Assembly: GCF_027214005.1 (NCBI RefSeq)
Contig: NZ_JAPWGY010000007.1
Location: 62,001-126,000 of the forward strand
Length of the DNA: 64,000 bases
Direction of reading: 5' to 3'
Source: Kiloniella laminariae
Lineage (GTDB): Bacteria; Pseudomonadota; Alphaproteobacteria; Kiloniellales; Kiloniellaceae
A program made the translations under genes and the position numbers. Positions 32,350 to 36,028 of the stretch are shown here, in pieces. Each line of letters begins with the position of its first letter. Within the stretch, counting starts at the first letter, position 1. The notes beneath the pieces were generated by a model. It saw only the letters and a list, made by a program, of their open reading frames with translations, made no database searches and had not been told where the DNA came from.

Positions 32350-34548
32350 ATGCCTGCTAAACATCTGTTACAAAGAGGGGCCGCTCATGTTGCCCTGTTT
32401 CTGGGGATTACCGCGTATTTACCTTTCACAACAATTTCTCTTTCGGCTGAAGAAGTGAAGGAGCAGCAAAATGTGAGCACCGATAAATGGGGGGCACACA
32501 TAGAAGTGGAAGGGAAGTACGGAACTGATCGGCATATCGGGGAAAGTATCTTGTTTGTGCCCCTGTTTCAGAACGAGGACAGTATGGTGTTCCTCGACCT
32601 AAGGGGGAAACTGGATAATAACCAGTCCCGAGAAGCCAATGTGGGCTTAGGATATCGACAAATAGTCAATGAAGACTGGCTTGTTGGTGGATATGGGTTC
32701 TATGACCGCCGACATTCACCCGAAGGAAACGACTTTAACCAGATGACCTTTGGGGCAGAAGCCCTAACCGAAAACCTGGACTTGCGGGTGAACGGTTATT
32801 TGCCATTTGGCGATACGACCAAAACGTCAAGCAAGTTTGACAGTGTTCAACTCAACGGCAGCTCGATCACAATGCAAGAGGGACAGGAGAGGGCTTTGAA
32901 GGGCTTTGACGGTGAGGTTGGCCATACTCTTCCTGTCCTGTCCCTGATGCCGGATAAATCGGATGAAATGCGTGTCTACCTTGGTGGATATCATTTTTGG
33001 GAAGAAGGGGTGGATAATGTCACGGGACCTCGTGTCAGAGCAGAGTATCGAATGAATGATGTTTTTATTGAAGGGAGCAGAATTAGCCTGAATGGGGAGC
33101 TTCAGCATGATAGTCCCCGTGGCCGGCAGGGATTTGTTGGTCTGAAATTCCGTATTCCCCTGCAACCAGATACTGCTCGGGGCCAATCCAGACTTTCGCG
33201 GTTAGAGAAAAGAATGACCGAAACAGTCGTGCGGGATGTTGATGTCGTTGCGCAAGCAGGGGCCTTTGGTGAGGAAGTCCCCGCGATTGATATGGAAACG
33301 GGAAAGGCTTTGGTGGATCTGAACGTTATTGATGCCAAAACCGGAAGTGAACTGAAAACCGGAATTGAAACGGCTGAAGCGACAAAAGTGGCGTTTGTTA
33401 ACAGTAAGGGGCAAGTCCTAAACATCGATGATACGATTACTTTACAAGCAGGACAGAGAGTCCGAGGTAATTTCAGGGTAAAGCATCCGACGACCGGACG
33501 TGAGATGAACTTTGGAAATACAAGTGTCCATGGAACGGATGCAACGAAGCATGTCTTTGCAATGAATGATAATTCATCTCTGTCTGGGGTGGTAATTTCC
33601 GGAGGTTACCACGGGGTGCACTCCAGTGGTAAAAACAACGTAACCCTCAGTGATATCCAGATTAGTGCCACGCGAGAAGCTGGTGTCAATTTTGAAGGCG
33701 GTACCAATTTAAAAATTTCCAGACTGGATGTTTCAAATCTGGATTTTGATAATGCGGATGGATTTTCCAATGCCAATCCCAACAATACTGTAACGGGGGT
33801 AGGGTTGCGCATTATCAGCTCTACGGGCGTTGAAGTGGACGGATATCACGCTGACTATCTTGGTACCGGTATTTTGTCCAATAATGTTCGGGACCTGAAG
33901 GTTACGAACTCGACAATTTCACGGACGAGGAAAGAAGGTATGGTGCATCATTATCTGCACGATGCATCTTTTGATAACGTAGAGATTGATAAAACGGGTG
34001 CTGATGGTGCGGCTTTTATAGTTTCTGCTGATGTGTCTTACCGGAACTCATCTCTCACCAATCTTGGCGCTATGAACAAGCTCGGTAATTATAGTGGTGT
34101 AAATATAAGCGGCTTTTCCAGTGATGGAACGATCATTGTCGGTTCGACAGAAAACAAAAACTATAATTTTGATAATCTGAAGATAAGTAATGCGTCAAAC
34201 AGCGGCATGATGCTTCAGGAAATCAGAGATTCAAGTTTTAACAATATTGAAATCAGCAATGTTGATATCATTGGCATCCAGGTGATGAGAATGATGCGAG
34301 ATGTTGAGAATCTCGAATTTGATAATGTTCAGATCAGCAATGCGCAAAATGCCGGTTTCTGGATGATGGGTGATGTCAGTGACATTCAGGGTGATATCAG
34401 GATAACGGATACGGCGACCGCCTGTGGACGTTCAAAGTGGATGGCGGCAAATCTCACTCAAAGCGGGGCTCAGGAACTTCGGATCAATGGAGCAGTTCTC
34501 GCGCCTGTGGATGTGGGCACAACCTGTCAGGAGGTGTCAAATTTCTGA
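32350..34548 (+). CDS. Inverse autotransporter with beta-helix passenger
   Basis: The 732-residue surface protein has a signal peptide at about residues 1-33. Residues 45-275 resemble the inverse-autotransporter beta-barrel of intimin/invasin: W-G-A-H-I-E-V-E-G-K-Y-G, then alternating strands with V-G-L-G-Y-R-Q and G-G-Y-G-F-Y-D-R-R, then R-V-N-G-Y-L-P-F-G. A short helical and linker part follows. From about 395 the passenger is made of short repeats rich in Asn, Ser and Asp (I-S-N-A-x-N-S-G, S-F-N-N-I-E-I-S-N, F-D-N-V-Q-I-S-N), the look of a right-handed parallel beta-helix. There are no Ig-like repeats or C-type lectin end. The Fur box implies expression under iron starvation. Adhesion or polysaccharide binding is inferred. 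The gene seems more AT-rich than its neighbours, which hints at transfer. Confidence 0.85.
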   Translation: MPAKHLLQRGAAHVALFLGITAYLPFTTISLSAEEVKEQQNVSTDKWGAHIEVEGKYGTDRHIGESILFVPLFQNEDSMVFLDLRGKLDNNQSREANVGLGYRQIVNEDWLVGGYGFYDRRHSPEGNDFNQMTFGAEALTENLDLRVNGYLPFGDTTKTSSKFDSVQLNGSSITMQEGQERALKGFDGEVGHTLPVLSLMPDKSDEMRVYLGGYHFWEEGVDNVTGPRVRAEYRMNDVFIEGSRISLNGELQHDSPRGRQGFVGLKFRIPLQPDTARGQSRLSRLEKRMTETVVRDVDVVAQAGAFGEEVPAIDMETGKALVDLNVIDAKTGSELKTGIETAEATKVAFVNSKGQVLNIDDTITLQAGQRVRGNFRVKHPTTGREMNFGNTSVHGTDATKHVFAMNDNSSLSGVVISGGYHGVHSSGKNNVTLSDIQISATREAGVNFEGGTNLKISRLDVSNLDFDNADGFSNANPNNTVTGVGLRIISSTGVEVDGYHADYLGTGILSNNVRDLKVTNSTISRTRKEGMVHHYLHDASFDNVEIDKTGADGAAFIVSADVSYRNSSLTNLGAMNKLGNYSGVNISGFSSDGTIIVGSTENKNYNFDNLKISNASNSGMMLQEIRDSSFNNIEISNVDIIGIQVMRMMRDVENLEFDNVQISNAQNAGFWMMGDVSDIQGDIRITDTATACGRSKWMAANLTQSGAQELRINGAVLAPVDVGTTCQEVSNF

Positions 34549-34630
34549 GGAGTCCGAGTTGTCAGAGAAAAAGTTGTCCTGGTACAATAGTCTTTGCCGG
34601 GCCGAATCCGTTAAAATGCTTATTTCGCGG

Positions 34631-34659
34631 TTGACCGTCATAATAAAGCTGATTACGGT
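34631..34659 (+). promoter_or_regulatory. Candidate promoter of the asd leader transcript
   Basis: TTGACC (34631-34636), a 17-bp spacer and TACGGT (34654-34659) form a plausible alphaproteobacterial promoter. A start near 34666 would lie about 28 bases ahead of the leader-peptide ATG. The -10 element is weak. Confidence 0.35.
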
Positions 34660-34693
34660 GAGCTCCGAATTAACCCCGAGTGGAACAGGTTGT

Positions 34694-34858
34694 ATGTCTA
34701 ATTCCGGTTCATATCTGGCCCAGCGCGCTGCCCACACTGCGAAATCTCTTCGCCGTGCGTTTGTTGCTGCGCGTCCAGTTGTAACCGTGACAACCACCTG
34801 GACCACCATTACCACCCCTGTCACCACCATGAAGGTGAAGATGGGCGGTTGCAGGTAG
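34694..34858 (+). CDS. Threonine-rich leader peptide upstream of asd
   Basis: This 54-codon frame starts at ATG 34694 behind GGAACAGG and ends at TAG 34856-34858. Codons 31-45 (34784-34828) include ten Thr (nine ACC, one ACA), giving T-V-T-T-T-W-T-T-I-T-T-P-V-T-T. This strongly recalls the E. coli thr leader peptide (T-T-I-T-T-T-I-T-I-T-T). asd, a gene of the aspartate family that supplies threonine, follows 150 bp downstream behind a terminator. The leader is probably a sensor of charged tRNA-Thr rather than a working protein. The long N-terminal part is unusual for a leader, and the exact start is uncertain. Confidence 0.6.
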   Translation: MSNSGSYLAQRAAHTAKSLRRAFVAARPVVTVTTTWTTITTPVTTMKVKMGGCR

Positions 34859-34919
34859 ATCCTCTCGGGAATAAAGGCTGATTTAAGGGCCGTCCCATTG
34901 AGGGGCGGCCCTTTTTCTT
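34841..34919 (+). terminator. Putative threonine attenuator before asd
   Basis: Terminator: AAGGGCCG-T-CCC (34885-34896) pairs with GGG-G-CGGCCCTT (34902-34913) around ATTGA, followed by TTTTTCTTT. Antiterminator: ATGGGCGG (34841-34848) pairs with CCGTCCCAT (34890-34898) with one bulged T, which removes the left terminator arm. Pause hairpin: ACCACCC (34811-34817) in the Thr run pairs with GGGCGGT (34843-34849) with one mismatch. The leader stop codon is eight bases after segment 2, so a terminating ribosome would cover it. The terminator itself is clear; the switching is inferred. Confidence 0.6.
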
Positions 34920-35008
34920 TAGGGCTTCAGAGCCGCTGGATGGCGGTAAAGAAACGGAATTTTAATCGGTCCGGTTGGGCCAGAAACTGAAAGAGTATAG
35001 GCGAGAGT

Positions 35009-36028
35009 ATGGGTCACAAGATTGCAGTTATGGGCGCAACAGGCGCCGTCGGTCGCGAAATCCTGACAACGCTTTCCGAGCGTGGTTTTGATATCAAGGA
35101 CATCACCGTTCTGGCGTCCAGCCGTTCCACAGGAACCAAAGTCTCTTATGGCGAAGTGGGTGAACTGACCGTGCAGAACCTGGCGACCTTTGATTTCAAG
35201 GGCACCGACATTGTTCTCTCCTCACCAGGAGGCTCGGTTTCAGCTGAGTACTCTCCCAAGGCAGCCGCGGCAGGTGCTGTGGTTATCGACAATACATCCC
35301 ATTTCCGCATGGATCCGGATGTGCCGTTGATCGTACCGGAAGTAAACCCTGAAGCACTGGCCGGGTACAAAAAACGCAATATCATTGCCAACCCGAACTG
35401 TTCGACCATCCAGATGGTGCATGTCCTCAAGCCATTGCATGAGCTGGGTGTGGTCAAGCGTGTGGTGGTGTCGACCTATCAGGCGGTTTCCGGGGCAGGC
35501 AAGGATGCCATGGATGAGCTGTTCAACCAGACACGTGGAATCTTTGTCAACGATCCGATCAAGAAAGAATGCTTTACCAAGCAGATCGCTTTCAACGTGA
35601 TCCCGCATATCGATGTCTTCATGGATGACGGTTACACCAAGGAAGAATGGAAAATGATGGTCGAGACCAAGAAAATTCTCGATCCGAAAATCAAGGTTAC
35701 GGCGACCTGTGTGCGCGTGCCGGTCTTTATCGGTCATGCGGAAGCCGTCAGCATCGAGTTTGAAAAGGAAGTCACGGTTGAACAGGCTCGCAAGGCCCTG
35801 AAAGACACCCCGGGTATTTCCGTTATCGATCACCGTCAGGACGAGGGTTATGTCACACCACAGGAAGCTGCAGGTGAAGATCCGACCTTTGTTAGCCGTA
35901 TTCGTACTGACCCGACAGTTGATCATGGTCTGAGTTTGTGGGTTGTCGCTGACAACCTGCGTAAGGGCGCGGCCCTTAATGCGGTTCAGATTGCTGAACT
36001 GCTGATAAAGGATCACCTCAACAAGTAG
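35009..36028 (+). CDS. asd: Aspartate-semialdehyde dehydrogenase
   Basis: The enzyme reduces aspartyl phosphate to aspartate semialdehyde, the branch point to lysine/DAP, threonine and methionine. The 339 residues include the NADP motif G-A-T-G-A-V-G-R-E near the start, the catalytic Cys131 in N-P-N-C-S-T-I-Q, and the C-terminal G-H-A-E-A-V-S and R-K-G-A-A-L-N-A blocks. It stands apart from leuB because an adhesin gene intervenes, and it appears to be controlled by the threonine-rich leader. A strong terminator follows. Confidence 0.98.
   Translation: MGHKIAVMGATGAVGREILTTLSERGFDIKDITVLASSRSTGTKVSYGEVGELTVQNLATFDFKGTDIVLSSPGGSVSAEYSPKAAAAGAVVIDNTSHFRMDPDVPLIVPEVNPEALAGYKKRNIIANPNCSTIQMVHVLKPLHELGVVKRVVVSTYQAVSGAGKDAMDELFNQTRGIFVNDPIKKECFTKQIAFNVIPHIDVFMDDGYTKEEWKMMVETKKILDPKIKVTATCVRVPVFIGHAEAVSIEFEKEVTVEQARKALKDTPGISVIDHRQDEGYVTPQEAAGEDPTFVSRIRTDPTVDHGLSLWVVADNLRKGAALNAVQIAELLIKDHLNK

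Follow-up and report, generated by a model that had tools for sequence, protein, structure and literature searches.

Organization of the asd upstream region

We analyzed the region upstream of asd in a 64,000-nt stretch of Kiloniella laminariae DNA (hereafter the window). This gene (35009–36028) encodes aspartate-semialdehyde dehydrogenase, as judged from its own translation and from matches in relatives, and is the presumed target of regulation; like the features of the leader region described below, it lies on the forward strand. Its product makes the last common intermediate of lysine, methionine, threonine and cell-wall diaminopimelate, which places asd at a branch point. Between the end of the upstream gene at 34548 and the start of asd at 35009 lie, in order, a promoter-like site, a leader frame, an intrinsic terminator and a 90-nt stretch. 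The upstream gene is a 732-aa frame (32350–34548) with the look, by eye, of an inverse-autotransporter-type outer-membrane protein, and a similar gene end also precedes the leader in genome L003.

The leader frame (34694–34858) comprises 54 codons, reads MSNSGSYLAQRAAHTAKSLRRAFVAARPVVTVTTTWTTITTPVTTMKVKMGGCR*, ends in a TAG stop codon (34856–34858) and lies 150 nt 5′ of asd. Codons 31–45 (34784–34828), which include segment 1 of the alternative pairings, specify Thr at ten of 15 positions through nine ACC codons and one ACA, so that a run of codons for a product of the pathway is found in a short frame 5′ of the gene, as in an attenuator. The preliminary description of this DNA had reported such a frame, and translation, codon counts and its recurrence in all nine genomes of the genus bear it out.

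An intrinsic terminator, also expected of an attenuator between leader and gene, occupies 34885–34918. Its 12-bp stem with a loop of five (34885–34913) starts 26 nt after the leader stop codon and is followed by a T-run, as first described. The left arm can alternatively pair with the last leader codons: segment 2 (34840–34850, within codons 49–53) is the 5′ strand of a predicted antiterminator, whose 3′ strand, segment 3 (34888–34899), contains most of the terminator left arm. This 2:3 pairing, likewise proposed earlier, was recovered in folding as 11 pairs with a bulged T at 34893; L006, L007 and L008 have a weaker segment 2 than the other six genomes of the genus. The proposed 1:2 pairing of ACCACCC with GGGCGGT was slightly overstated, since one of its seven positions is an A–C mismatch, while the area itself is indeed paired in the predicted fold.

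Upstream of the leader, a promoter-like TTGACC-17-TACGGT (34631–34659) was recognized by eye; TTGACC is invariant in all nine genomes and the site matches the consensus at 8 of 12 positions by hand count. A consensus promoter scan does not call it; the only match of that scan is at 34559–34588, for a chance expectation of 0.5, and no promoter-like site was called 3′ of the terminator.

Conservation within Kiloniella

The eight closest relatives, with asd 92–98% identical, all belong to the same genus. A Thr-rich frame precedes asd in each of the nine genomes examined, 150–157 nt upstream, and this recurrence indicates that the leader is more than a chance frame. Frame lengths differ by 3 or 6 nt, that is, by in-frame indels; the richest 15 codons hold 8–10 Thr per genome, and all four Thr codons are used across the nine. 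One Lys lies within the Thr stretch in six of the nine genomes, the window's not among them, and further Lys follows the stretch in all nine. A profile built from the nine leader peptides gave one match per genus genome and none in 14 genomes from other genera of the family; across 289 genomes of the class, its best match outside the genus reached only E 0.009.

Substitution patterns differ between parts of the leader (36 genome pairs pooled). Over the whole leader, pS is 0.185 and pN 0.111, compared with 0.561 and 0.034 in asd. The Thr part (pS 0.260, pN 0.105, pN/pS 0.40) and the C-terminus (pS 0.311, pN 0.094, pN/pS 0.30) retain an excess of silent change, whereas in codons 1–29 (34694–34780) pN equals pS (0.120 and 0.117), each about one-fifth of asd pS. 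On these values, the Thr part evolves as coding sequence, and codons 1–29 are conserved at the nucleotide level, as RNA rather than protein. All 34 terminator positions are invariant in the nine genomes, and the longest invariant run upstream of asd spans 44 nt and ends at 34928, at the terminator; asd, in which 62 of 337 third codon positions do not vary, has no invariant run longer than 20 nt. An alignment of asd upstream regions had been put forward as a check; it returned the Thr-rich frame in nine of nine genomes, with all four Thr codons, and no compensating changes in the 2:3 or 3:4 pairing. Segment 3 and the terminator are identical in all nine genomes, so no such changes are usable inside Kiloniella.

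Predicted folding with a stalled ribosome

To model stalling, a ribosome was placed on each leader codon, hiding RNA up to 11 nt beyond the stalled codon. With RNA made to 34899, the antiterminator reaches a probability of 0.92–0.94 only for stalls at codons 38–45, the end of the Thr run; it is 0.37 at codon 37 and near 0 earlier, 0.52 at Met46, and 0 from Lys47 through the stop codon. In the computed folding of the window, the geometry thus works as proposed, with Thr stalls favoring the antiterminator and the stop codon the terminator. When the RNA extends to 34905, the probability for codons 38–45 drops to 0.12–0.66, and at full length the antiterminator is 0 and the terminator always wins. 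Such a switch must therefore be kinetic, as known attenuators are.

A cruder measure, pairing of the left arm with anything upstream, gave no distinction in Kiloniella between Thr stalls and stalls at later codons before the stop, and the cost of freeing the left arm was used in its place. In all nine genomes, a ribosome stalled at the last Thr raises this cost above the value for one at the stop codon, with means of 11.1 (range 8.2–13.7) and 5.7 (5.4–5.9) kcal/mol, respectively. In comparison with 60 shuffled versions of the intervening stretch, the antiterminator gave p values of 0.016–0.28, below 0.05 in five of nine genomes (0.016–0.033), 0.066 in the window (L001) and 0.148–0.279 in L006, L007 and L008. 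Within Kiloniella alone, the predicted pairing beats chance weakly. It is not clearly better than random synonymous recodings, 6–75% of which do as well across the nine genomes, and it is accordingly not demonstrably selected beyond the peptide.

Thr/Lys leaders before asd outside the genus

We surveyed asd upstream regions in 139 genomes: nine from the genus, 13 from the rest of the family, 29 from the order and 88 from the class more widely. The family sample is 13 of 14, the remaining genome having no proper asd match. Of 190 class genomes, 165 gave an asd match; these were ranked, and the 88 class regions were taken from the top downward, omitting second copies and sites without upstream sequence. 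The class sample is consequently biased toward similar asd. A frame was counted when 12 codons within its last 24 held at least seven Thr plus Lys with at least three Thr, or six Thr, and its stop codon lay 60–280 nt before asd. Matches were found in 8/9 genus, 0/13 other family, 2/29 order and 5/88 class genomes; the Kiloniella genome missed by this strict rule, L007, falls just below the threshold. The reverse strand gave none in any group, and 20 shuffled class sets, which preserve dinucleotide content only roughly, gave one match (mean 0.05). Both order matches (L130 and L135) look like secreted small proteins and were set aside. Several other amino-acid pairs do as well in the 88 class regions when scored at about this threshold (Ala-Arg 7, Arg-Ser 6, Pro-Arg 6, Gly-Arg 6, Lys-Thr 5), so the count of five is not special by itself. 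What sets these leaders apart is their repetition in relatives of the matches.

The five class matches fall in five families: f9 (L159), f44 (L113), f50 (L099), f112 (L110) and f128 (L189). A leader precedes asd in 4/4 genomes of f128, 1/1 of f9 and one of two of f44 (L113, not L096). In f112 it was called by script in 11/14, one of which (L216) looked by eye like a secreted-type frame and was excluded, and in f50 it is found in 19/25, one further genome having a broken asd and no locus. The Thr/Lys leaders of these families are those of L099, L110, L113, L159, L189, L202–L209, L211, L213–L215, L218–L227, L229–L231, L233–L236 and L238–L240. Endings such as TTKTTTKKTTTGV, TTTTKTKTTKTGR and TTKTGTTTTA are carried on differing N-termini. 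Among six named records, a leader ending in KTTAKTTTKTV or alike occurs in S. meliloti, Shinella and Rhizobium and is absent before asd in Methylobacterium bullatum, Sphingomonas parapaucimobilis and Ruegeria TM1040. Across the five families and these three Rhizobiaceae records, the leaders with Thr- and Lys-rich C-termini end ~105–240 nt before asd, and the five families could include relatives of the Rhizobiaceae.

In f50 and f112, segment 2 starts −5 to +9 nt from the end of the leader stop codon and its partner is the terminator left arm, with 2:3 pairs that differ by lineage (CCTCGTGCGC with GCAGGCTGGGG in L206, GCGGGCCGGT with AAAAGGCCCGC in L236). With the ribosome stalled at the last Thr, the arm-freeing cost outperforms that of shuffled sequences (p ≤ 0.05) in 8/10 f112 and 3/19 f50 genomes; with the stall moved to 8 codons before the end, a position chosen after the last-Thr result had been seen, it does so in 4/10 and 12/19. 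The predicted antiterminator is clearer in these two families than in Kiloniella. With the stall at the second of these positions, none of seven others (f9, f44, two f128 and three Rhizobiaceae) beat shuffles, and the f128 and Rhizobiaceae leaders lack a clear terminator with a 2:3 partner. The three Rhizobiaceae leaders (L245, L246 and L249), ~110 nt before asd and without a clear intrinsic terminator, likely use another control mechanism. A further Thr/Lys-rich frame with a terminator, MPKTTTAKSKTTTGKAVA in L136, lies 697–571 nt before asd and was left out, an opposing gene apparently lying between. We place the Kiloniella element in a scattered group of putative Thr or Thr/Lys leaders before asd.

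Relation to known leaders

The element resembles E. coli thrL, the leader of thrABC, in its Thr-rich leader peptide, mutually exclusive 2:3 and 3:4 pairings and intrinsic terminator. It differs in that it would control asd alone, lacks an Ile cluster and has 54 codons, compared with 21 in E. coli thrL. The two leaders share a preference for ACC, eight of which are given for the thr leader (PMC1183508). Against the Rfam model RF00506 (Thr_leader), the window's leader scores 24.6 bits, below the gathering cut-off of 55. The best match in the same genome scores higher (35.1 bits) and is by eye a plain terminator, and among 289 genomes of the class none has a match above the cut-off and 49 have matches below it; the sub-threshold match was for these reasons judged meaningless. 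The Kiloniella element is predicted to work like the E. coli thr attenuator and is not a member of Rfam Thr_leader. Weak matches to sbrA and suhB in the leader stretch were disregarded.

According to the preliminary description, no thr attenuator was known on asd in alphaproteobacteria. This needs correction: in a 2023 study of S. meliloti, a frame of the asd 5′ UTR, SEP5, with a single cluster of six Thr and three Lys, was demonstrated to be translated and was called possibly a leader peptide (PMC10117765), and the idea of an asd leader is hence not wholly new. We take its gene to be asd because the L245 frame has the same Thr and Lys counts. As in SEP5, the Kiloniella Thr cluster falls toward the 3′ end of a short frame upstream of asd, within the last 24 codons, and the frame ends shortly upstream of the gene. 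The two differ in that the Kiloniella peptide shows no similarity to SEP5 by eye and L245 lacks a clear intrinsic terminator; the profile search of 289 class genomes likewise found no SEP5-type homology. The cited passages of the study state conservation of SEP5 for Sinorhizobium only (PMC10117765). What is new here is the Kiloniella element, its computed folding logic and the spread of such leaders.

S. meliloti also offers an alphaproteobacterial attenuator leader in rnTrpL/peTrpL of the trp system (PMC7298713, PMC10117765). It differs in its Trp codons, its target trpE and its reported functions in trans (PMC7298713); in Kiloniella such a role would be a guess. A thr-operon attenuator is described in Vibrio natriegens, with none shown for asd in the cited part of that report (PMC12925634), and asd is not mentioned in the cited portions of PMC2965389 and PMC1273637. 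A literature search gave no further report of an asd leader among the matches listed; the Vitreschak 2004 survey of proteobacterial attenuators lay outside its scope and may contain one.

Proposed mechanism and alternative explanations

The element is best read as a ribosome-mediated transcription attenuator through which charged Thr-tRNA would control asd, and we hold this reading with considerable confidence. Transcription would start 5′ of the leader frame. With ample threonine, the ribosome would reach the stop codon and cover segment 2, the 3:4 terminator would form, and RNA polymerase would halt before asd. With threonine scarce, the ribosome would stall in codons 38–45 and leave segment 2 free, so that 2:3 could form before segment 4 is made and asd would be read. 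The leader and its RNA switch would thus most likely shut asd down when threonine is plentiful. Elsewhere in the same genome, two homoserine-dehydrogenase genes and thrC have no upstream Thr cluster (at most three Thr per 12 codons in flagged frames, ~600 nt scanned).

The frame might instead be a small-protein gene with an ordinary terminator of its own, asd being served by a separate promoter and not controlled by the frame. Thr-rich, secreted-looking small proteins do precede asd elsewhere in the order, both in further genera of the same family and in further families, and the leader terminator resembles an ordinary terminator elsewhere in the genome (L087). Terminators without a Thr-rich leader frame, named in the preliminary description as a finding that would speak against attenuation, were seen by eye in L024, L026 and L030, from other families of the order; because each follows an unrelated small-protein gene, they were not counted as the same element. 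The Kiloniella peptide has no signal-peptide look by eye, changes in codons 1–29 as freely as silent sites do, and the scan found no promoter-like site past its terminator. Leaders of other families, lacking detectable similarity, occupy the same place and also end in Thr/Lys clusters. We consider an independent small-protein gene quite improbable. Small proteins rich in Thr, Gln and Ser were noted upstream of asd in L010, L013, L019, L020, L024–L027, L030, L122, L130 and L135; several of them look as if they carry a signal peptide, and a terminator follows some. By eye, the Thr-rich secreted-looking proteins, including those of L130, L135, L210, L212 and L216, are a different thing from the leaders.

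Control might also act on asd translation or through Rho termination, and the Thr/Lys leaders of Rhizobiaceae and f128, with no clear intrinsic terminator, suggest that another way exists; for Kiloniella, where a strong and invariant terminator follows the stop codon in nine of nine genomes, we regard this as very improbable. The terminated leader RNA (~250 nt) could, with or without attenuation, be a trans-acting small RNA like rnTrpL of S. meliloti. The 44-nt invariant run and the nucleotide-level conservation of codons 1–29 are in its favor, and CCTCTC after the leader stop codon may, as a guess, pair with ribosome-binding sites; strong conservation of the leader RNA could stem from cis folding alone, and we judge a trans-acting role unlikely.

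Alongside the attenuator reading, we tentatively entertain a broader proposal, which as a whole we find possible but rather doubtful: that Thr or Thr/Lys leader-peptide control of asd arose repeatedly in Alphaproteobacteria with unrelated peptides, and that the Kiloniella leader RNA gained a second, RNA-level job. The latter is proposed because codons 1–29 and the released 3′ end are conserved as nucleotides. Joint control by Thr and Lys codons, if true, would make a simple two-input sensor at the asd branch point, and spread over several families would provide a natural set for examining the origin of leader attenuators, changes in their amino-acid inputs and the gain of extra RNA functions.

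Two further elements flank the predicted switch. In the RNAalifold consensus, CCCGAGTGG of the leader 5′ UTR (34675–34683) is paired with CCTCTCGGG, which lies between the leader stop codon and the terminator (34861–34869), without covariation; as both are nearly invariant, the pairing is unproven. By eye, CCCGAG has two copies, at least one of which every genome of the nine keeps intact. Between terminator and asd, two small hairpins (34930–34981) are absent from the window's own best fold and belong to the best folds of the other eight genomes, where sequences differ. As a whole, this stretch is not notably stable, with z −0.2 for the window and −0.7 to −2.6 for the other eight, and the predicted hairpins give a hint that it is transcribed.
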